39,799 nucleotides of DNA, taken from positions 1 to 39,799 of IMG/VR virus record IMGVR_UViG_3300036818_000103. One strand, given 5' to 3'. Positions 6,845-33,407 of the stretch are shown here, one piece after another. Within the stretch, counting starts at the first letter, position 1. Every line of letters starts with the position of its first letter. Position numbers and translations under genes: made by a program. This stretch comes from a virus. The notes beneath the pieces are model-generated. The model had not been told where the DNA came from and did no database searches. It saw only the letters and a program-made list of their open reading frames with translations.

Positions 6845-9800
6845 CTATGAAGTAGCGGTGAGGACGACAATCGACATCGCCGGGATGGTGATCCCCGTAA
6901 GCAACGCCGATGTTGAGATCGTGGTGGTGTATCCAGACGGATGGGCCGCGCTGAGTTCCCAATAGGTCCACGCCGTTGCCGTCGATCCGTTCATGACGAC
7001 CGAAACAGGATAATTCGTGCTTACATTATAGTTGATGATTTGGCAGCAGAAGTTGCTGGTTCTCGATGACGACGCCACGGTGCCGATCGTTACCAAGTTC
7101 ATCGAGCCACCGGTCACCGCACTGCTCACGACATTGCCCGGTGCGATCGATGCAAGTTTCGAATAGACATACGCTGGCGGGGTGAGGAAGTACGGACCTT
7201 GTCCCCAAGTGTTGCTCTCTATCAATCCATAGAATTGATCAAAGGCGATATCCCACCGCATTAGGCTCCATGCTGTGCCAACCTTTCCGACCGTAGCATA
7301 TCGAAACGCCGCGTAGACCGCACCAGTGACGTCTTGCTGATAGCTTGAGAAACCCGGCGTTCCATCCATGTTGAACTCGGTCAACATGAGAGGAGCGTGC
7401 GATGACAATCCGGCGGCTGTTGTATAGGACCGGATATCGTTAAACGTATCTGTCAATTCATTTGCGAAGATTTGCGAGACCGACATCGATCCCTGTTCTT
7501 CCGGATAGCCATGCCAGGAGATAAAGTCTGGCGCAGACTGCTGAATGAGCGCGGTGATGCGAGACTGATTGGCGTACGAATCATCCAGGCCACCGGCCTG
7601 ATAGTCGCTATTGACCGCCTTGACACCGGCTTTCATCGCATTGAACATGCCGATACAACTATTGATATCGAGATCATCGTTCTCGTTCTTCAATGTCCAA
7701 TAGAAGCAAGGCAAGCCGCCATTCAGGAAGTGCTGGGCAATCTGCTGGCATATGTTCTGATACACTGCCCAATCTGAGGACGATGTAATATCGATCCACG
7801 GTGGCCAGCCAAGCGTGATGACCAGATTAGCCGTCGCCAGAGTCGTGCCAACCGTGAAGCACTTCTGCGCATTGTTGATGAAGTTGTCGATATACTGCCA
7901 TTGCGGACTAGAACCACGGCTCGGATAGAGAAAGTCCATCTGACTATTCGTGTTCAGACCCCAGTTGAGTCGCAGCGCACCGAACGGCAGTGACTTGCAG
8001 ATCGTCTGAAACGCCGGGTCGGTCATTAGGCCATAGTCAGAGACGCCGCTGTTCGGCATCGTGCTGCACGCGACTCCATAGAAGGATGGCGGCATAACCA
8101 CACCGGTCGGTGACGCCAGATTGAAGGTCACGGCAGGGCCGCTCGGCGGCGGTGATGGCGGCGGCGTCAAAACACCAAGCGGGTTGATCGTCGTGCCGCT
8201 CGCCGGTGACCATGCATCAGTCGGGACGGTTTTGCTATACCAGAGCACGCCTTGCGGCAGATTAGCCGGTGCAGTCAATGGCCCGACGAAAGTCGATCCA
8301 TCCCATATGAACCAATTGATCGTCGTCGCATCCGCGCCGTATATGTTGTTGTTGTACAGGTCAATCTGACCGGTATGGTCACCGCCGGGCAGCGGTATGC
8401 CATCCTGTAATATGTTCAACGAGGTATCGATTGAGTACGTATGACCGTTGAAACTGATCGATCCCACCCCTGTGGTTGCATAGGTCGCCGTGCTGAGGAT
8501 CGTCGCCGACGATTCACGCCATACCGCACCATTCACGTACGCCAATTCGAGCACGTTGTTTGTGGTCAAATCCACGACACCATTGACCGCGACTTGCTGT
8601 CCGACAATCGTCCATATGCTTCCGTCAATGCCAATGATCTGCGATGCACTGGGCACCGTTGTGCCGTTGGGAGAAGGCGTCGGCGCAGGCGGAGGTGCCG
8701 GTGGAGGTGGAGTGGGTGTTGGAGACGGTGTGCTAATCCAGCCAACCGTATCCATCCCCGACAGACTCTGGTTCGCAGCAGCGATGTAATAACCATAGCC
8801 ATGCGCGGCGGCCCATGTTTTGACGTCAGAGACCTCAGTCGTCGTGGTCGCATTCGTACCTCCGTCCACGTACTCGACCAAGATGACCGGCTTGCCAGCC
8901 GCCGTGCAATTGGCCAGCATCGCATCCTCGAAGTTACGTTGGGTCGTCGAAGCCGGGTTGCCGTAAGAATTATATACGACCTTTTCTTTGAACATGCCAT
9001 CGATGACAGAAGTATAGGGGATGATTGGCGTGAAGCTATAGCCGAGTCCCGCGAGACTTGGATTGAAAAGTTCTTCGCCGCCATTAGTCCAGATCAGAAA
9101 GTCTACTTTGATGCCGTGGGCATATGTTCGCAGATTGCTGATCAACTGGGTCATGAAGTTGGCCGAATTGACGACACCACTTGCAAACTCGACAGCGGGG
9201 TCGGTTGCCGACTTGGTGTAGTTCCATCCCTCGATACCATCCATAAAGACACCATCAAACCCGGCGGTGATCAGATTGCTGATCCAATCCTGACAAATCT
9301 GCAACCACGTCGGCGTCCAGAATTCGACGTTATATGTCGCTGTCGCACCTGAGCCAATTACCGGTGTGGTTGGATTGATGACGATCTGGGCGTTCACTGC
9401 CGTCTGGTAGTACGGACGGAACGACTGGGCGAAGCCAATGTTGAGATATCCGAGCACGATACCGCTGCCCTTCATGCCGGCAACGGTCGCAGAAGGCCAA
9501 AACGTTCCGATCCCATCGGACGTTGCCTCGATAGCCTTTATGGCGACCGGTGAAGTGGCGATCTGTGTGGCGACGATGCCACTCATCACGTAGATACCAT
9601 TCTCGACCGGCGCAGGGGGAGGTGCCGGTGGAGGCGGCGTGGGCGAAGGCGGCGGTGACGGAGGTGGTGTCGGTGCCGGAGGCGGAGGAGCCGGAATCGG
9701 TGGCACAGGGATAGGCGCGGGCACGCTGCCTGATGCGCTGATACCAGTCGTCGTGATCCAGATTTTACGTCCAGTGGACGACCAATCATTATAGAGTTTG

Positions 9801-11047
9801 CGTATCCAGCCTGATGGACCGAACAATGGAAGATTGTATGGTGCTTCAGTATCAGCAGCCGTTTGCCAGTAACTCTGGATCGAACTCGCATCGGTACCGG
9901 TGAATGGCGCACTGATTTCAACACCGATTGCATCCCAGATTTGTGTCGAGCCGCTTCCCCAGTTCATCGCATAGGATGATCCGACCGGGCCGACTGTCTG
10001 CGGTGTCGCTTGGTATAGAATGGCGCCAGAGAACACGGCCTTGCATGTGTGATAGAGTTGCAACCATTGCGGCATATACTCGGTCGGCGTATCACCGTTC
10101 CGCGCATATGGAAACACGCCCGGTGCGATGGAGATCGCGGCGCAGCCCAATCTATTCGCTGCTATCGCAAGCTGAACAGCCACGTTTTGTAGATTGACCA
10201 GGAACGCCGCTGGATCGGTCGGGAAGAAGTTGTAGGTCGGCGTCCCATCAGCACATTGCAGGACCAATGCAAGAATGACCGACAATCCATTCGCGCGATA
10301 ACTCTGCACAACGAGATCGATCGTACCGCCAACGATGACTGGATCGTTATTTGCATCGAGGAACGATACATCGGTTGATGTGGCAGATGTTGTGAAGCAT
10401 AGCACGGGCACGTACACCGAATTTACACCAAGTGTCGTCTTCACGCTCATACCACTCGCGGGTTCCCCGCTTCCCGGATAAAGGTCCTGTTGTGCGGCGA
10501 CGAATTGGACGGCCGATGTGGGCGACGGCGTTGGTGTTGGCGACGGCGTTGGTGTTGGTGTTGGTGTCGGTGTTGGCGACGGCGTTGGCGACGGCGTTGG
10601 CGATGGCGTAGGTGGAGGCGATGGCGTAGGCGTCGGAGCCGGCGGACTGAAGGGCAACGGCGTGAGACGCGGATTGACATGCTGTTCGAACGCAAGATAC
10701 TTCTGAGCAGGGGCCGGGAAGCCAATTGCATTACTGATGCGCAGCAGGTATTGCTCGATCTGATATGACGCCCATGCATCATGCAATGGTGTCGCGAGAT
10801 CGACAACCTGTTGAGGCGAAACGAATTGTGTCTCGTTGATCACCTTCGTCTGATAGAAGATTGAGGCGTTCGCCGTGGCAAACACCTGTTCCAGCCCAGG
10901 ATTGTTCGTATCGGCATTGGATTCGATGACGTTAAGTACCTGCTGTAGCGCAGCAGCCGAGACCGGATTGGTGGCCACGTCGGTTGGAATCTTAATCTGA
11001 CTGACGAGAGCAATTAGTCTTGCAAGTTGCGGGCTGGTATCGCTCAC
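6845..11047 (-). CDS. Giant multi-enzyme tail fibre (TIM barrel, GH114-like, GH39-like)
   Basis: 1400 residues. Order: structural N-terminus (1-133); Pro/Thr/Ser linker (134-178); TIM-barrel hydrolase-like domain of unassigned family (180-440); Pro linker (441-480); GH114-like domain (482-772, alpha-1,4-polygalactosaminidase type) with GYLNIGFAQ and GVFMDGIEGW; Pro linker; a small beta domain (800-935) shared with the next fibre gene; GH39-like clan GH-A domain (970-1310) with acid/base Glu1122 (LKNENDD) and nucleophile Glu1224 (LTEFNMD); C-terminal beta-sandwich. It starts with GTG at 11047, overlapping the upstream stop. I infer a virion-borne fibre that attacks several linkages of a host exopolysaccharide. 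The domain calls are by motif, and substrates are unknown. Confidence 0.75.
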   Translation of the reverse strand: MSDTSPQLARLIALVSQIKIPTDVATNPVSAAALQQVLNVIESNADTNNPGLEQVFATANASIFYQTKVINETQFVSPQQVVDLATPLHDAWASYQIEQYLLRISNAIGFPAPAQKYLAFEQHVNPRLTPLPFSPPAPTPTPSPPPTPSPTPSPTPSPTPTPTPTPTPSPTPTPSPTSAVQFVAAQQDLYPGSGEPASGMSVKTTLGVNSVYVPVLCFTTSATSTDVSFLDANNDPVIVGGTIDLVVQSYRANGLSVILALVLQCADGTPTYNFFPTDPAAFLVNLQNVAVQLAIAANRLGCAAISIAPGVFPYARNGDTPTEYMPQWLQLYHTCKAVFSGAILYQATPQTVGPVGSSYAMNWGSGSTQIWDAIGVEISAPFTGTDASSIQSYWQTAADTEAPYNLPLFGPSGWIRKLYNDWSSTGRKIWITTTGISASGSVPAPIPVPPIPAPPPPAPTPPPSPPPSPTPPPPAPPPAPVENGIYVMSGIVATQIATSPVAIKAIEATSDGIGTFWPSATVAGMKGSGIVLGYLNIGFAQSFRPYYQTAVNAQIVINPTTPVIGSGATATYNVEFWTPTWLQICQDWISNLITAGFDGVFMDGIEGWNYTKSATDPAVEFASGVVNSANFMTQLISNLRTYAHGIKVDFLIWTNGGEELFNPSLAGLGYSFTPIIPYTSVIDGMFKEKVVYNSYGNPASTTQRNFEDAMLANCTAAGKPVILVEYVDGGTNATTTTEVSDVKTWAAAHGYGYYIAAANQSLSGMDTVGWISTPSPTPTPPPPAPPPAPTPSPNGTTVPSASQIIGIDGSIWTIVGQQVAVNGVVDLTTNNVLELAYVNGAVWRESSATILSTATYATTGVGSISFNGHTYSIDTSLNILQDGIPLPGGDHTGQIDLYNNNIYGADATTINWFIWDGSTFVGPLTAPANLPQGVLWYSKTVPTDAWSPASGTTINPLGVLTPPPSPPPSGPAVTFNLASPTGVVMPPSFYGVACSTMPNSGVSDYGLMTDPAFQTICKSLPFGALRLNWGLNTNSQMDFLYPSRGSSPQWQYIDNFINNAQKCFTVGTTLATANLVITLGWPPWIDITSSSDWAVYQNICQQIAQHFLNGGLPCFYWTLKNENDDLDINSCIGMFNAMKAGVKAVNSDYQAGGLDDSYANQSRITALIQQSAPDFISWHGYPEEQGSMSVSQIFANELTDTFNDIRSYTTAAGLSSHAPLMLTEFNMDGTPGFSSYQQDVTGAVYAAFRYATVGKVGTAWSLMRWDIAFDQFYGLIESNTWGQGPYFLTPPAYVYSKLASIAPGNVVSSAVTGGSMNLVTIGTVASSSRTSNFCCQIINYNVSTNYPVSVVMNGSTATAWTYWELSAAHPSGYTTTISTSALLTGITIPAMSIVVLTATS

Positions 11048-11587: not shown

Positions 11588-14455
11588 TTAGCCCTTTTTC
11601 AACGGCCCGAACGTGTTACCAATGATCGTCGCCGCTGGTGTGTTTATGACGCCATCGTCCGGTGTTCCACTCGACCCCTGCGGATCACCGGTATGAACTA
11701 CGAAACCGTAAAGGATGTCAGTGTTGGCAGCTATTTCAGCGCTCAGTGCCTGCCAATAGCTCGTGAAGGTTTGTGACACCTGTCCGATCGTAATCGTGAC
11801 CGGCGATGGCGCTGGACCCGCTGGCGGTGACGAGGCGAGCGGCGGAGTACCGATTCCCACACGAGGTCCAGGACCATTCTTGGGAGACGTCGCAAACGAC
11901 TGGCCACCAACATGCTGGTTCCGCAATGGACATAGATACTGCACGATCTTCGGCAAATCAGTGTTGAGATGAGCGATGACCGTCGGGGATACATCCTGCG
12001 AGCAACTCAAATGAAAGCCGCCAGGGATCGATCCGCGCCACAGTGCCCCATACGTCTGTAGACACTTGAAGACCACTTGCCCCTCAGCCGTCAAACCACT
12101 TGGCATCGTGGTCGATTGTGGGATGAACACTGTCGTACCAGCAACCAATTGACCCGTATAGGGGACGGCGCTTTGTGAATCTTGCTTCTTCTGTGGCCAC
12201 GAATTGGGTCCCAGATTATCGGTGCCATCCGATGATCCGCTCTTGAGGAACTTGGGATCATGTAGATATCGCAGCATATGCTGGATGTTCGGATAATTCG
12301 GATTCTGCGTAGAATCAAAATCATACGCAGTCAACATGCCAGGGATACCATCGTATCCGTAGTTGCCTGTTTCCTGATCTTCACCGAAGTGATCGGACGT
12401 CGGATCATCAGTTTCACCAAACTCAGCCGCGACAACCTGACCGCCGGTGATTGGCGATGTATTGAGATCGACGAATGACCATGCCGTTTTTTGGTTACCG
12501 CTTATGTCCCAAATATTGAAGATGTTGCGTCCAAGGCTGTTGCCAAACGTGGGACCGGGCTGATAGGCGCCGAGTGGAACGTGCAGATTGGCAGATAGCG
12601 CACTATCCCGTTGATATGCATCAGGCGACGTCGTGAACGTGGTCAGAGGATCGGTTGCTTTGCCATTCCAGATGACATCCCCCATCGAGAGACTGGGGTT
12701 GATCGCGCCGCCATGTCTCAATGCAATCGTGTCAGGGTCTGTTGCCAATCCAGCCACGGCTCCTGAACCAAGCTGTGTGACCCACACGCTCGCCCCACCA
12801 AGCGTGCCTGACGATCCGTCGCCACCTGGGTTCTGCCAATAGTTTCTCGTGGCAGGAGCCGGTGTCGGCGGTGGTGCCGGTGGCGGAGAAGGAGGAGGAG
12901 GTGCCGGTGGCGGAGAAGGAGGTGCCGGTGGAATCACCGCGAGATTGCCGGTCAACGTCACGAGTGATCGTGACGGCAAGCTCAACGACATACTATTGGT
13001 GATCGTCAGCGATTGTTGAATCGGCGGCGAGGAATGAGTGGGCGATAGTTCCCAGTACGTCCCTGTTTGCGCTGGCAAGCCTTGCAGATTGATCGTCTGC
13101 GCTGTGGAGCTATAGTTGATAAACGCGATACTGAACGTCGAGGTCTGGACACTCGCGAGACATACGACATTGGTCAGGCCAGAGCCAATGCTAGCAGATA
13201 CCTGATTGCCGCCCATGATCCGACCAAGTTGGCCAAGCATATAGCCCATTGGACGCACATTGCTGCCATCGTCATTGACAATGGTGAAGTTAGAGTTCTC
13301 ACCAATCGTCCAAATGGCGCCCATCGTGATGTTCGAATCTATAGTTGCACGAGCACCAAGCGTATACAAAGCACCAAAGATCGCACCGTCGATCGTCTGC
13401 ATCATCGGTTCGGTGCCATTGTAGTCGATATTCCATTCACCAAGGAAGATCGGCACGGATGTCTTGGATCGAATGGTGGCAATATCGCTTTGTTGACGGT
13501 TTACGATGGTGTTGAATAATGAAAAGTTGTTACTGTACCCACCCGTTACATAGGTGTGATAAGAGACGAAGTCGTAGGTCAAACCTTGCGAAAGGAAGTC
13601 CGATCGCGCGAACGATGTGGTCGGGCCACCAACCTTATAGTTGGCATCAACCGACTTGATCGCGTTTCTGAACGCGTTGTAGTTTGCTACGTAGTCAGTC
13701 AGATCGGAATCAGGTTCATTCCAGTACTCCCAATAATAGATCGGGAAACCATTGCTCTTGAACCAATTGGCGAGTGTGACAGCTTGTGCAGTCGATCCTG
13801 GTTGATTACCACCCGAGTTCGGGGCGCTACCGAAGGTGAAGACTTGCTGATAACGGCTGGTATCTTCCGGTCCAGATGCTTGTTGCCAAATCGCCTTAAG
13901 GCCATTGATCCAGTTGTTCTGCATCGTGGTGTTTTGATTATTACCACCCGGCCAACGAAACAATGATCCCTGTGTATTGTGACGGAACAGCCGCCATTGC
14001 TGTTGCCGATAGGTCGTTTGCCAACCAGAATTGATTGCTGCGCCATAATCATTCACAGCGGGCGAGTTCAAGCCCTCGGTGCCGACACCCCAAATGTATG
14101 GACTGACGACGCCAACGGTCTTGGTAAGATCGATGACGATCTGCGTACCAGCGGCCGGTCCAGGTGACGGCGATGGTGTTGGAGTCGGTGACGGCGGCGG
14201 TGCCGGTGGTGAACCAGGAAGATTGGGAGGCGCGCTGGCAAGGGTGAATATTGCTACCCCATCGAAGGCGTACCAATTGCCTGTGGTCGCATCGGCGGCA
14301 TAGATGGTGCCGTTGTAGAGGTCGATCTGACCCGTGTCCGACCCGCCGGGGACTGCTACCCCGTTTTGGAGAAAATCGAGCGACAGGTTGATCGTGTAAG
14401 TATTGCCGTTCAGTAAGATCGAGCCATTGCCCGGAGTAGCGTATGTTGTTACCAT
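11588..14455 (-). CDS. GH39-like tail fibre hydrolase with a large unassigned C-terminal domain
   Basis: 955 residues from the ATG at 14455; an in-frame ATG at 14473 would add six. It opens in the middle of the small beta domain found at 848-935 of the 1400-residue fibre (DTGQIDLYNGTIYAADATT versus HTGQIDLYNNNIYGADATT), then a Pro linker, a GH39-like catalytic domain with acid/base Glu247 (YWNEPD) and nucleophile Glu340 (FLGEWNID), a beta-sandwich ending near 505, a second Pro-rich linker (about 508-535) and a C-terminal domain of about 415 residues that I do not recognise. TAAATA sits 5 nt before the ATG with no Shine-Dalgarno. I infer an exopolysaccharide-degrading fibre. Confidence 0.75.
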   Translation of the reverse strand: MVTTYATPGNGSILLNGNTYTINLSLDFLQNGVAVPGGSDTGQIDLYNGTIYAADATTGNWYAFDGVAIFTLASAPPNLPGSPPAPPPSPTPTPSPSPGPAAGTQIVIDLTKTVGVVSPYIWGVGTEGLNSPAVNDYGAAINSGWQTTYRQQQWRLFRHNTQGSLFRWPGGNNQNTTMQNNWINGLKAIWQQASGPEDTSRYQQVFTFGSAPNSGGNQPGSTAQAVTLANWFKSNGFPIYYWEYWNEPDSDLTDYVANYNAFRNAIKSVDANYKVGGPTTSFARSDFLSQGLTYDFVSYHTYVTGGYSNNFSLFNTIVNRQQSDIATIRSKTSVPIFLGEWNIDYNGTEPMMQTIDGAIFGALYTLGARATIDSNITMGAIWTIGENSNFTIVNDDGSNVRPMGYMLGQLGRIMGGNQVSASIGSGLTNVVCLASVQTSTFSIAFINYSSTAQTINLQGLPAQTGTYWELSPTHSSPPIQQSLTITNSMSLSLPSRSLVTLTGNLAVIPPAPPSPPPAPPPPSPPPAPPPTPAPATRNYWQNPGGDGSSGTLGGASVWVTQLGSGAVAGLATDPDTIALRHGGAINPSLSMGDVIWNGKATDPLTTFTTSPDAYQRDSALSANLHVPLGAYQPGPTFGNSLGRNIFNIWDISGNQKTAWSFVDLNTSPITGGQVVAAEFGETDDPTSDHFGEDQETGNYGYDGIPGMLTAYDFDSTQNPNYPNIQHMLRYLHDPKFLKSGSSDGTDNLGPNSWPQKKQDSQSAVPYTGQLVAGTTVFIPQSTTMPSGLTAEGQVVFKCLQTYGALWRGSIPGGFHLSCSQDVSPTVIAHLNTDLPKIVQYLCPLRNQHVGGQSFATSPKNGPGPRVGIGTPPLASSPPAGPAPSPVTITIGQVSQTFTSYWQALSAEIAANTDILYGFVVHTGDPQGSSGTPDDGVINTPAATIIGNTFGPLKKG

Positions 14456-14460
14456 GTAGC

Positions 14461-14466
14461 TATTTA
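14461..14466 (-). promoter_or_regulatory. TAAATA element 5 nt before ATG 14455
   Basis: GTAAATA-GCTAC-ATG on the minus strand. Together with the plus-strand CTAAATA at 14486 it forms a divergent pair around a C5/G5 inverted repeat (14467-14485). Confidence 0.5.
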
Positions 14467-14485
14467 CCCCCATGAGCCTGGGGGC

Positions 14486-28869: not shown

Positions 28870-28934
28870 GATGTATCTTTCTTCTTTATGTAAGCGAAGC
28901 GATAGATGCATAGAGTTCCCCTGGCCGGAATCCA

Positions 28935-29332
28935 GGCGGAGAGGCAGGCACCGGGCTGGCGCCCGGCACCCGCCTCAGGCAATCCCTCGCGCCGGACGGG
29001 CCGCTCGCTGCCGCTCGCCGGGGCTGGCGCCCCGCCGTCCTTCACTCGGGATTGCATTTTTCACCCAGATGGGGCGGCGACAAGGCAGGGTGCGCCCTGG
29101 TCGATGCCCCGACTTGCCCATGGTCGGTACTTGATCGGCGGAGAGGCAGGCACCGGGCTGGCGCCCGGCACCCGCCTCAGGCAATCCCTCGCGCCGGACG
29201 GGCCGCTCGCTACCGCTCGCCGGGGCTGGCGCCCCGCCGTCCTTCACTCGGGATTACATTTTTCACCCAGAGGGGCGGCGACAAGGCAGGGGTGGCGCCC
29301 TGGTCGATGCCCCACTTGCCCATGGTCGATAC
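28935..29332. repeat. Tandem duplication of a 196-bp GC-rich palindrome-rich element
   Basis: Copies 28935-29130 and 29137-29332 lie 202 bp apart and differ by few substitutions and 1-2 nt indels. Each holds nested inverted repeats (CCGGGCTGGCGCCCGG, GGGGCTGGCGCCCC) and is far richer in G+C than the flanks. The indels differ between copies and no frame has ribosome sites or codon pattern, so I treat it as non-coding: a dispersed-repeat-like, MITE-like or structured-RNA element. The 300-odd bases around it hold no gene. Confidence 0.75.
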
Positions 29333-29524: not shown

Positions 29525-29716
29525 TCAGGCATCGCGGGACTTCTTACGAAACGGACGATTACGCGAATCGAATTCCGGCACGACGAACAGGTCTCCGTGG
29601 CGCCCCGGTGCGTGTTGGATGATGTAACGCTCTGCCTCACGTGCGCTGGCAAAGTCGTTGCCGTCTTGCCGTTTGCCGTCCTTGTCCACGATGATCCACC
29701 GCATTATGTCGCTCAT
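29525..29716 (-). CDS. Small hypothetical protein
   Basis: 63 residues, ATG 29716 with GAGAGGA seven bases ahead. Sequence MSDIMRWIIVDKDGKRQDGN then DFASAREAERYIIQHAPGRH. The order beta-strand, then 'F.s..EA.rYi', then beta-strand resembles the repeat in the 102-residue protein at 31572-31880 (FATIAEAVSY), so it may be a distant member of the same small-protein group. Confidence 0.6.
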   Translation of the reverse strand: MSDIMRWIIVDKDGKRQDGNDFASAREAERYIIQHAPGRHGDLFVVPEFDSRNRPFRKKSRDA

Positions 29717-29887: not shown

Positions 29888-29930
29888 ACATTTGGGGTGA
29901 AGGCCGCTGCATGGCCTTCACCCCAAATGT
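29888..29930. other. Perfect 18-bp inverted repeat, 7-nt loop
   Basis: Arms 29888-29905 and 29913-29930 (ACATTTGGGGTGAAGGCC and its complement) pair without mismatch. No T-tract follows on either strand. Very strong hairpin immediately in front of the first GTCGAAGCC repeat array; it could be a terminator or a binding site. Confidence 0.7.
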
Positions 29931-29931
29931 C

Positions 29932-30099
29932 GTCGAAGCCTTGTAGCCTTGTAGTGGCTCAGGATTGTACGCACATTTGTCGAAGCCGTAGCTTTGTCGA
30001 AGCCTTGTTGGCTGATGCGGCGGCATCCACAACCCAATGATGGGCTTGTCGAAGCCTCGTAGCTGGCTATATGTTATCGAAGTCTAGTGGATTGTCAAC
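29932..30099. repeat. GTCGAAGCC repeat array, left block
   Basis: Four exact GTCGAAGCC copies (29932, 29979, 29996, 30048) and a degenerate one at 30076, interspersed with TTGTAG and TTGGCTG elements, ending in GATTGTCAACCCCC. No gene lies here. The same elements recur at 31464-32130. Spacing is irregular, so it is not a CRISPR array. Confidence 0.65.
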
Positions 30100-30179
30100 C
30101 CCCCTCTTACTCCCATGAGACGGCTTGACCTTCACGCCACGGCGGAGCAAGTTCCGCCGCTTCAACGCAGGAGACGACT

Positions 30180-30347
30180 ATGCAAGAAAGCTATTACGTG
30201 GATGTCCTGCATGCGCAGAAGAAGCCTCTCTCCATGGCCGGGTTACGTTTTGTCTGGACCACCCGGCATTGTCTACATGCGTTTATGCATGGCTGCTATG
30301 CATATTTGGACTGTAGACGACGATTGGCGAATTGGCTACAAGCGTGA
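30180..30347 (+). CDS. Small YYVD-type protein
   Basis: 55 residues, ATG 30180 with GCAGGAG at ideal distance. It begins MQESYYVDVLHAQKK. The leader (AACGCAGGAGACGACT) and the first dozen codons match those of the protein at 31880 on the other strand (MHQYYVDIVHLARK), which shows that this frame, not the two overlapping longer ones, is real. The remainder is basic and aromatic-rich (HCLHAFMHGCYAYLDCRRRL) and does not align, so it may be a truncated or frameshifted relative. Confidence 0.5.
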   Translation: MQESYYVDVLHAQKKPLSMAGLRFVWTTRHCLHAFMHGCYAYLDCRRRLANWLQA

Positions 30348-30349
30348 CC

Positions 30350-30619
30350 ATGCTCAGGAAGAGAAAACGAACGCAGCCACCATCGGTGCTGGTCCACGCG
30401 CGGGTCAATCCCGCGGTGTTTGAGGCTCTCCAACAGATGTCGATAGCGGAACGAAGATCGTTCGCCAACATGCTCGCGATTATTCTGGAAGACGGTTGTC
30501 GTGACTGGAGGCGGGCAGATGGCAGGCCGGTGGCAAGCGTCACAGACAATCCGACGCAATCGAGCGGAAAATCCAGCGCAGCAGATAGCGGTGCTGACGA
30601 ACCAGCGGGCCGAGTATGA
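30350..30619 (+). CDS. Ribbon-helix-helix DNA-binding protein
   Basis: 89 residues from the ATG at 30350, 2 nt after the previous stop. The core SVLVHARVNPAVFEALQQMS followed by IAERRSFANMLAIILEDG has the Arc/MetJ layout: a short basic beta strand (VHARV), a first helix and a second helix with the hydrophobic 'SFANMLAIILE' pattern. The C-terminus is a disordered Ser/Asp/Gln tail. Probably a transcriptional regulator acting on the nearby promoters. Confidence 0.65.
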   Translation: MLRKRKRTQPPSVLVHARVNPAVFEALQQMSIAERRSFANMLAIILEDGCRDWRRADGRPVASVTDNPTQSSGKSSAADSGADEPAGRV

Positions 30620-30637
30620 TAAGGAGGATTGAGCGCC

Positions 30638-31032
30638 GTGACCGACATCGCAGCGGCCGTGGAACAGCCAGCTTACGCGGCTGTGCAATTGACCATCGGC
30701 GAGTCAGTTCGAACTTGGCGGAATCGACAAGGGTGGACACTGACAGACGCTGCGGATCAATGGGGGATCAGCCGCGGGGGGGTTACGAGTTCGATCGGGT
30801 CGAGGCGCCCGACTGGTTACAACGGAAAGTAGCGAATCTGAAGCCCACAGCCCCTGAACTTTTGCGGCTGCTGCGGCGGAGATCGGGGTACGGTTTGCAT
30901 GAGCTTGCCAGAAAATACGGCGTGAGTCACGTCAGCCTTTTGCGCCGCGAGCGGCTGGGCGACAAAGATTTGCTGCGCTTCTATGGGATTGGATCGATAA
31001 CAGCGCTACTCACGAACGCAGAGAAAGGGTGA
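30638..31032 (+). CDS. Double helix-turn-helix regulator, split by a frameshift at a G7 run
   Basis: GTG 30638 lies 10 nt after a perfect AAGGAGG. The first frame reads up to WGISRGG, a clear XRE-type helix-turn-helix (WTLTDAADQWGISRG), and stops at 30832. The frame shifted by one base carries on with YEFDRVEAPDWLQRKVANLK and a second helix-turn-helix (LHELARKYGVSHVSLLRRER) to 31032. A -1 shift, or one extra G, in GCGGGGGGG near 30775-30782 joins them into one 131-residue protein. This can be a sequencing error, a phase-variable switch or programmed slippage. Probably a phage repressor/activator-type regulator. Confidence 0.6.
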
Positions 31033-31037
31033 ACGAA

Positions 31038-31250
31038 ATGTACAAACTCACTGAGACTGAGGCGGACGAGATCGTCATCAATCAGGCTGCTTACGAGATT
31101 CAGCGTGCGATGCAGCAGTTTGAAACTGACCCAGGCCCAGGGGTAGTAGTCCGCCTGTCCGGGTTTATTGCAGAGTGGTTGGCAGAACGGCGGTTCATAC
31201 GCAGCAGCGCAGAAATCAATGAGGCGGAGCGGCGTGCTAATGAGGGCTGA
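31038..31250 (+). CDS. Small helical protein
   Basis: 70 residues from ATG 31038 with GAAAGGG eight bases ahead. Sequence YKLTETEADEIVINQAAYEI, then a Gly/Pro turn, then FIAEWLAERRFIRSSAEINE: two amphipathic helices, no known motif. It follows the double-HTH gene by 5 nt and is probably in its operon. Confidence 0.55.
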   Translation: MYKLTETEADEIVINQAAYEIQRAMQQFETDPGPGVVVRLSGFIAEWLAERRFIRSSAEINEAERRANEG

Positions 31251-31571
31251 GCGCCGTCACTCCATCGATCGCTGTCAACCAGTACACAGGGGCAGCTAGA
31301 CCGCGAGGCTTCATATTCTGTTATCTCCGGGTTCACGAATGCGATCCCATGCCCATCCCGGAGGTAGCGGGCAGACGCGCGACCAGCATACGATCATCTT
31401 GCCCGAACTTTTTAATAGACCAAGGTTGGCCAAAATCAGTTACGGCGGGGACGGATTAAACCTCTCGAAGCCTTGTATCGTTGGCTGTGGCCGGATGGAT
31501 CATGCGGTCTTGTTCTTTTGTCGAAGCCTTTATTGTCGTTGGCTGTTCGCGCGTGGGGGATTATAACAAGC
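31251..31571. repeat. Gene-free stretch with GTCGAAGCC-type repeats
   Basis: No supported gene. It holds a CTCGAAGCC copy (31464) and an exact copy (31520), each followed within 7-9 nt by GTTGGCTG, and a weaker GTCGAAACG at 31578. It is the first part of the right-hand repeat block. Confidence 0.55.
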
Positions 31572-31880
31572 TCAAGTGTCGAAACGGTTATTAGACCAGC
31601 CAACGAGACGGACTACGTCAAGCATCCCATTGCCATTGTTGTTAAAATACTCGTAGATGTAAACTTCCACCAGATCAGCTTGCTGCTGGCGAGCATAGGA
31701 GACGGCTTCTGCTACGGTCTCGAACCGAGCGCTCTCGCGTTTTAGCTGGCGAGAGTAGGAGACGGCTTCTGCTATGGTGGCGAACCGCGGGGGATCGCGT
31801 ATTGGCAGGCCAGAGACTGGCTCAATGCAGCGATCCTCCTTGCGAGCGAGATGGACGATATCCACGTAATATTGATGCAT
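31572..31880 (-). CDS. YYVD-type protein with a 20-residue internal duplication
   Basis: 102 residues, ATG 31880 behind GCAGGAGACGACTA, the same leader as the gene at 30180. N-terminus MHQYYVDIVHLARKED; then two tandem copies of 'RFxTxAEAVSYxRQ' (FATIAEAVSYSRQ, FETVAEAVSYARQ) and a final strand LVEVYIYEYFNNNG. The duplication is visible in DNA as an exact 60-bp period (31686 and 31746). A small beta-alpha-beta type protein of unknown function. Confidence 0.65.
   Translation of the reverse strand: MHQYYVDIVHLARKEDRCIEPVSGLPIRDPPRFATIAEAVSYSRQLKRESARFETVAEAVSYARQQQADLVEVYIYEYFNNNGNGMLDVVRLVGWSNNRFDT
31686..31788 (-). repeat. 60-bp tandem duplication inside a gene
   Basis: CTGGCGAG...GGAGACGGCTTCTGCTA recurs exactly 60 bp apart (31686 and 31746), adding 20 residues in frame. 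The copies differ at several positions, so the event is not very recent. Confidence 0.7.
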
Positions 31881-31904
31881 TAGTCGTCTCCTGCGTTGTG
31901 GTTA

Positions 31905-32130
31905 GCCGTAGCGTAGCCTTGTAGCTGGCTGAGGATTGCACACTTCTGCATGATGATGCGGACTTGTCGAAGCCTGTATTGTCGTTGGCTGCTTCGACAA
32001 AAATTGATCGATGGCATTTCCTATCCATTGTCGAAGCCTTATGGCTTGGCCGAAATATGCTTGAGCTTGTTGTCGAAGCCATGTCGTTGGCTGCTGGGGA
32101 CTATAGCACCGCTAAGCGGATTGTCAACGG
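31905..32130. repeat. GTCGAAGCC repeat array, right block
   Basis: Exact copies at 31966, 32030 and 32072, each near GTTGGCTG or TTGGC, and an inverted copy GCTTCGACAA at 31991 that makes a 10-bp stem with the copy at 31966. A GTAGCCTTGTAG-TGGCTGAGGATTG stretch (from 31910) matches 29943 onward in the left block. It ends in GGATTGTCAACGGGGG, as the left block does. Confidence 0.65.
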
Positions 32131-32378
32131 GGGTTGCTCATTTCGCCGTTGATAAAACTCGCGCAGACGTTGATAAAACTCGCGCAGACAGTGTGCGCGC
32201 GCCTTCGCGTCTCAGGATCATCCGCGACTGCGATAAGATCGAGCGTCGATTCTAGCAGTCCGAGTAACTTCGCATGATCTATCGCGCCGGTCGCGGTCGG
32301 TTCACCGGACAAGGCAACAATAGCTCCTGCGACCGCCTGACGCGTTACAACTGTTGCGAACTTATACCTGTACGCCAT
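32124..32378 (-). CDS. Small helical protein with a duplicated C-terminus
   Basis: 84 residues from ATG 32378 with CAGGAGACG upstream; a TTG at 32396 would add six. Sequence YKFATVVTRQAVAGAIVALS and KLLGLLESTLDLIAVADDPE, helical, then a 7-residue repeat VCASFIN twice from a 21-bp DNA duplication. The end lies within the repeat block's GATTGTCAAC motif. Unknown function. Confidence 0.55.
   Translation of the reverse strand: MAYRYKFATVVTRQAVAGAIVALSGEPTATGAIDHAKLLGLLESTLDLIAVADDPETRRRAHTVCASFINVCASFINGEMSNPR
32148..32189 (-). repeat. Perfect 21-bp tandem repeat
   Basis: GTTGATAAAACTCGCGCAGAC occurs twice back to back with no mismatch, giving VCASFIN twice at the end of the gene. It looks like a recent slippage event. 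Confidence 0.85.
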
Positions 32379-32415
32379 TTTCGTCTCCTGTGGCAAGTCG
32401 CCACCGTAGCATTAC

Positions 32416-33054: not shown

Positions 33055-33407
33055 AATCGTGCTCCTTGCTGATGCTCAGAGTTACTCCGGATCGGGCTTG
33101 ATGTCTACCTATCCCAGGTTGGACAGTCCAACCTAGGAGGCAACTCTCAGTTGTCTGATTGCCGCATAAGGGGTACAGTCAGATCGTTCCGCTTTAACTT
33201 CATTACCGCGTCATGATGTTCCACGTGGAATGATCATTGATAACATTGCGATCAAACATGATGACATAATGTTTGATATTGTATACGAACGCACATCATG
33301 TTGCCAACATGAAGTCGCGCCAGATCAGGCAGCAACCGCGAGTTCATTCGCTCGGCATGGCGTTGGATGATATCAAAGCGTGGCTGCACTAACAGGAGGG
33401 CCGCATA
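33055..33407. promoter_or_regulatory. AT-rich dyad-rich spacer, likely control or origin-type region
   Basis: No gene in 350 bp. It contains several dyads: AGGTTGGA-CAG-TCCAACCT (33116-33134), the parS-like palindrome (33217-33232), ATCAAACAT / ATGTTTGAT with a 9-nt gap (33251-33277), and CATGTTG / CAACATG (33297-33311). It separates divergent genes (32416-33054 minus, 33408 onward plus). Several binding sites so close together suggest a promoter/operator, partition or replication region. Confidence 0.5.
33217..33232. promoter_or_regulatory. parS-like ParB-binding site
   Basis: TGTTCCACGTGGAATG matches the Pseudomonas-type parS TGTTCCACGTGGAACA at 14 of 16 positions, including the whole TTCCACGTGGAA palindrome. 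No ParB or ParA gene is visible in the window, so it could recruit the host protein. Confidence 0.55.

Follow-up and report, generated by a model that had tools for sequence, protein, structure and literature searches.

Genes and repeat blocks of the locus

The locus belongs to a 39,799-bp virus record without an attached host genome, the whole of which was analysed and is called the window here. It contains a bipartite repeat unit, made up of box A (TTGTCGAAGCC), a spacer of 4-15 nt and box B ((T)TGGCTG), which is arranged in blocks around a group of small genes. From left to right the features are:

29525..29716 (-), 63-aa ORF, the next minus-strand gene candidate leftward of block 1
29888..29930, perfect inverted repeat bordering block 1 on its outer side, with 18-bp arms and a 7-nt loop
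29930..30069 (-), block 1, with units at 29930, 29977, 29994 and 30046 (plus-strand box A coordinates) and a degenerate box A at 30074
30071..30098 (-), predicted leftward promoter P1, TTGACA-16-TAACAT, 10/12 consensus matches
30180..30347 (+), YYVD1, 55 aa, with ribosome-site region and first residues as in YYVD2 and divergent afterwards
30350..30619 (+), RHH-like protein, 89 aa (RHH_5, E 0.022, under the Pfam cut-off)
30638..31032 (+), double-HTH regulator, frame broken at the G7 run 30776-30782
31029..31250 (+), 73-aa protein without family match
31463..31545 (-), block 3, with units at 31463 (degenerate) and 31518
31560..31568 (-), extended -10-like TGTTATAAT preceding block 3, with no good -35 seen
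31572..31880 (-), YYVD2, 102 aa, weak DUF2188 similarity (E 0.011, under the cut-off)
31908..32093 (-), block 2, with units at 31908 (degenerate), 31964, 32028 and 32070
32100..32127 (-), predicted leftward promoter P2, TTGACA-16-TATAGT with TG before the -10, 11/12 matches

The YYVD1, RHH and HTH genes lie between block 1 and block 3. A preliminary description of this DNA had placed RHH, double-HTH and YYVD genes together between two blocks; the genes are present, but YYVD2 is separate, lying between blocks 3 and 2 in inverse orientation to its paralogue YYVD1. Nor does the 'double-HTH' gene form one open frame: its first HTH half precedes the G7 run and the second follows it in another frame. 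Joining the frames across the run gives two HTH_31 stretches (E 2.9e-7), and the break may reflect sequence decay, an error in sequencing, programmed slippage or phase variation. A single-sequence model of the RHH-like protein contained two confident helices. The equivalent fold of the double-HTH was uninformative (pLDDT 40.6); its input, 30640-31029, followed the reading frame of the second HTH, and the first half of the modelled sequence is therefore not real protein.

Several other sequence features were recorded in and around these genes. YYVD2 has an internal 60-nt tandem duplication (31685-31804, 80% identical), and a 21-nt exact tandem duplication (32147-32188) lies near the end of the minus-strand ORF 32124-32396. 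A GC-rich segment (about 72%) at 28930-29330 is a tandem duplicate with a step of about 200 bp. Two near-perfect palindromes with 13-nt arms and a 1-nt centre (33112-33138 and 33251-33277) occupy an AT-richer intergenic stretch that also holds a predicted leftward promoter at 33307; this stretch is possibly a main regulatory switch. A parS-like site at 33217-33232, TGTTCCACGTGGAATG, has two mismatches from the searched pattern and is not significant because 0.7 such matches are expected by chance.

The repeat family is genuine and one-stranded; its copy number, single strand, intergenic sites, bipartite form and recurrence in two other virus types were observed directly. Eight exact copies of GTCGAAGCC are found in 2.2 kb, all intergenic and on one strand, at exactly the coordinates given for them previously, and their number is far above chance: the window has nine copies against 0.47 expected from shuffling, and none of 100 shuffles had at least nine. 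The ninth, at 8946, is within the long ORF 6845-11047 (-). This ORF and 11588-14473 encode large minus-strand proteins that are related to each other, match glycoside hydrolase families (GH114, GH39) and are perhaps tail-associated. GTTGGCTG occurs eight times in the window (0.98 expected), and its reported position 2-9 nt after several GTCGAAGCC copies was borne out, with gaps of 2, 9, 9 and 5 nt to GTTGGCTG at 30007, 31538, 31984 and 32086. When 20 units from three viruses were aligned, AGCC was invariant and TGGC almost invariant. A two-mismatch scan added the degenerate copies at 30074, 31463 and 31908, which fall within the same intergenic blocks, while the remaining weak matches in the rest of the window make no array of the bipartite unit. 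There are thus three blocks (about 29930-30100, 31463-31545 and 31908-32133) and not the two originally claimed. Inside them the distance from one box A start to the next varies irregularly from 17 to 64 nt, and the earlier exclusion of CRISPR was correct. Integron attC sites carry RYYYAAC and GTTRRRY core sites; GTTGGCT is unlike GTTRRRY and no matching partner core lies inside the unit. Tn7- or Mu-type transposon ends need inverted sites at two ends, and all of the units point one way.

Both blocks originally described were said to end with GATTGTCAAC plus a C or G run. These ends are real (30090-30105 and 32119-32133), but block 3 starts behind TGTTATAAT instead, and on the opposite strand GATTGTCAAC is GTTGACAATC, which forms the -35 elements of P1 and P2 (predicted to be sigma-70-like and leftward). 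P2 had the top score among 190 promoter-like sites in the whole window. Read leftward, TGTTATAAT and a C run stand ahead of block 3 as TATAGT does ahead of block 2, and TATARTCCCC before the first unit is common to the two blocks. From the positions of P1, P2 and TGTTATAAT, each block has its first unit at, or shortly after, a consensus-based predicted +1, and the blocks are thus predicted to be promoter-associated in this phage. If P2 is used, block 2 would be the leader of the YYVD2 gene. The promoters are consensus matches and their starts predictions. No T run follows the inverted repeat at 29888-29930.

Repeat units in other viruses

Pattern and pair-pattern scans of a virus contig collection found multicopy, one-stranded units in the near-relatives G007 and G008 (IMGVR 3300046718_000886 and 3300046836_000624), which represent a DNA-polymerase/integrase phage, and in G001 (3300046836_000854), a jumbo-phage-like fragment. 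The G007 DNA polymerase is 23-27% identical to phage polymerases and an integrase is also present, while a G001 protein is 47-50% identical to neck or adaptor proteins from phages of 285-469 kb. The window shares with G007 one small protein and a terminase of 25% identity, and protein comparison with G001 gave nothing convincing in common; the two virus types carrying the unit are unrelated. The other contigs matched by the pair patterns had no arrays of the bipartite unit, several of them containing regular tandem repeats unlike it, or another sequence, GAGCTTGTCGAAG. Phages phiKX1 and Phosso, the nearest relatives of single proteins, contain zero units. Close DNA relatives of the window were found neither in phages nor in plasmids, and no relatives of it came up when viral contigs were scanned twice at the protein level.

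In G007/G008 and G001 the units are again mostly between genes, one G001 unit overlapping the final codons of a 103-aa predicted ORF, and unit direction is that of the structural genes found in the window, G007 and G001. In G007/G008 and in G001, one lead unit each has a TTGACA 12-41 nt in front of it; no good -10 follows this TTGACA in G007 or G001, so it may not be a promoter there. The G001 arrays, located between convergent genes or at their ends, bracket a carbamoyltransferase gene and a ribosomal protein L7/L12 gene (5547-7286 and 7445-7825, the latter with both L7/L12 domains), with repeat pairs as flanks. Those of G007 bracket a 156-aa gene without Pfam match. G007 and G008 share 99% identity over 4.6 kb at one contig end, in a stretch that starts at G007 position 28921 and extends rightward across the arrays, against mostly 75-92% elsewhere, and their gene content differs just left of this edge.

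Interpretation of the repeat blocks

We tentatively propose, at slightly less than an even chance, that the blocks are a phage-borne cis-regulatory repeat, either operator- or stoperator-like or a transcribed leader element. That they might be binding sites had been suggested previously, and in its general form this reading fits best because the blocks coincide with predicted promoter starts; there is no support for the RHH or HTH proteins specifically as the binders, because the units occur in virus types in which relatives of these proteins were not detected (G007 and G001 by protein comparison; G008 was compared as DNA only). In the mechanism we infer, a phage or host protein would bind the units, either as DNA, acting as an operator or a stoperator-like elongation roadblock, or within the leader RNA as it emerges, and would thereby control transcription that runs leftward into small accessory genes, the direction of the effect being part of what we infer. 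Support for cis-regulation comes from the number and single strand of the copies, the leftward TTGACA boxes at both GATTGTCAAC ends, the TGTTATAAT ahead of block 3, the multicopy recurrence in G007/G008 and G001 with a TTGACA before one lead unit in each, and the agreement in direction with the structural genes. Several points argue against cis-regulation. The promoters are consensus matches only, the freely varying spacer is unusual for a single DNA-binding dimer, the TTGACA of G007 and G001 is without a good -10, the G001 arrays are near convergent genes, and sequence comparison found no candidate binding protein common to the three virus types.

One alternative, raised earlier as cassette boundaries, is that the units are exchange junctions, that is, short same-direction repeats around accessory ('moron') genes at which homologous or site-specific recombination would add or remove cassettes. 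Units bracket accessory genes in all three virus types (RHH/HTH/YYVD in the window, carbamoyltransferase and L7/L12 in G001, the 156-aa gene in G007), recombination between such repeats has precedent in cluster O mycobacteriophages (PMC4351075), and the G007/G008 identity edge, with different genes just left of it, keeps this explanation alive. However, the edge is about 290 bp off the nearest unit and outside it, no empty site was seen and the promoter association is left unexplained, so we regard exchange junctions as unlikely. The unit might also be a miniature repeat, REP-like or derived from the host, that has moved into phages with a common host, and to this we attach a similarly low probability. 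Such an origin would account for the presence of the unit in viruses with no other relationship, of which metagenome 3300046836 supplied two, and is in keeping with the short inverted AGCC/GGCT arms. Against it, a scan of an 84,980-species collection with the probe pattern gave 42 stretches with one match each and no genome with two, and whole-genome searches of those 42 genomes and of 385 Alphaproteobacteria gave low unit counts at chance level. Scatter throughout the host genome, named at the outset as the finding that would count against a link to this cassette, was therefore seen in no genome searched, although the true host may be absent from these genomes. Matches to alphaproteobacterial phages hint at an alphaproteobacterial host. 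As a further host clue, a GC-rich element of the window was looked for in 292 genomes from the phylum of a Chloroflexaceae MAG, and this gave two short weak matches only.

Another possibility is that the units form RNA hairpins in transcripts, for processing, antitermination or as a sponge. The AGCC/GGCT arms with free loop length would allow this, array transcripts would begin at the first unit, and folding z-scores of the leftward strand are -0.7 to -2.5. These z-scores are modest and the opposite strand folds about equally, while the arms are invariant without compensatory change across the aligned units, so that covariation does not support a hairpin. In addition, 10 of the 11 window units have T-T as the next inner pair, most G001 and G007 units have A-T, and the blocks have no Rfam match; a tRNA search also found nothing there. 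Recognition as sequence fits better than RNA structure, and we consider hairpins distinctly improbable. Iterons, which had been among the options raised initially, or a centromere-like site for the RHH protein would be consistent with direct repeats clustered close to an RHH-like gene. This explanation is poorly supported and can be given very little credence, as the spacing is irregular, the repeats are divided over three distinct intergenic gaps and are associated with predicted promoters, no initiator or partition gene match was recognised among the ORFs scanned, and G007 and G001 have no detected RHH relative.

Returning to cis-regulation, it is conceivable, though rather improbable, that the unit is an undescribed bipartite, free-spacer regulatory or recombination element that unrelated tailed phages have in common and that delimits their accessory-gene slots. 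If this were true, newly acquired genes would come under one common control signal. The motif provides a search key for further phages in the form of paired TCGAAGCC-N(2-12)-TGGCTG.

Comparison with known repeat systems

The stoperators of cluster A mycobacteriophages are short asymmetric sites, mostly in one orientation with respect to transcription, and are bound by a repressor both at promoters and downstream of them (PMC6550527, PMC9283540). The present units resemble them in keeping to one strand within each of the window, G007/G008 and G001; with regard to the stoperator feature of a site that overlaps a promoter, the first units are at the P1 and P2 starts as predicted from consensus. 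Stoperators, however, are 13-bp sites spread over the genome of one phage and have a known repressor, whereas the units described here are bipartite with a variable spacer, are confined to a few gaps and occur in unrelated phages, among which sequence comparison found no common binder. The SAS/ESAS of cluster K phages are likewise phage repeats in direct orientation, and the ESAS, inverted repeats whose spacer varies from 4 to 13 bp (PMC3203893), provide a precedent for an inverted repeat of this form; SAS adjoin start codons, whereas the present units are at predicted promoter starts and between genes.

Cluster O mycobacteriophages have 17-bp repeats with dyad symmetry, many of them intergenic, and recombination between copies has been linked to gene gain and loss (PMC4351075). 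These share with the present units their multiple copies, dyad symmetry and frequent intergenic position, but have a fixed 3-bp centre, occur in both orientations and number more than 30 sites genome-wide, partly in genes. Outside phages, the TAACTGA repeats of Beggiatoaceae and others are intergenic direct repeats in distant lineages with a suspected regulatory role (PMC4679880). The resemblance lies in intergenic, direct repeats across distant lineages, although TAACTGA repeats are direct heptamers mostly just upstream of the start codons of cellular genes. Each of the phage repeat control sites compared here belongs to one phage cluster, whereas the present unit appears to span unrelated phages; a unit common to such phages would mean either that a shared host factor reads it or that it is a portable signal for control or exchange of accessory genes.
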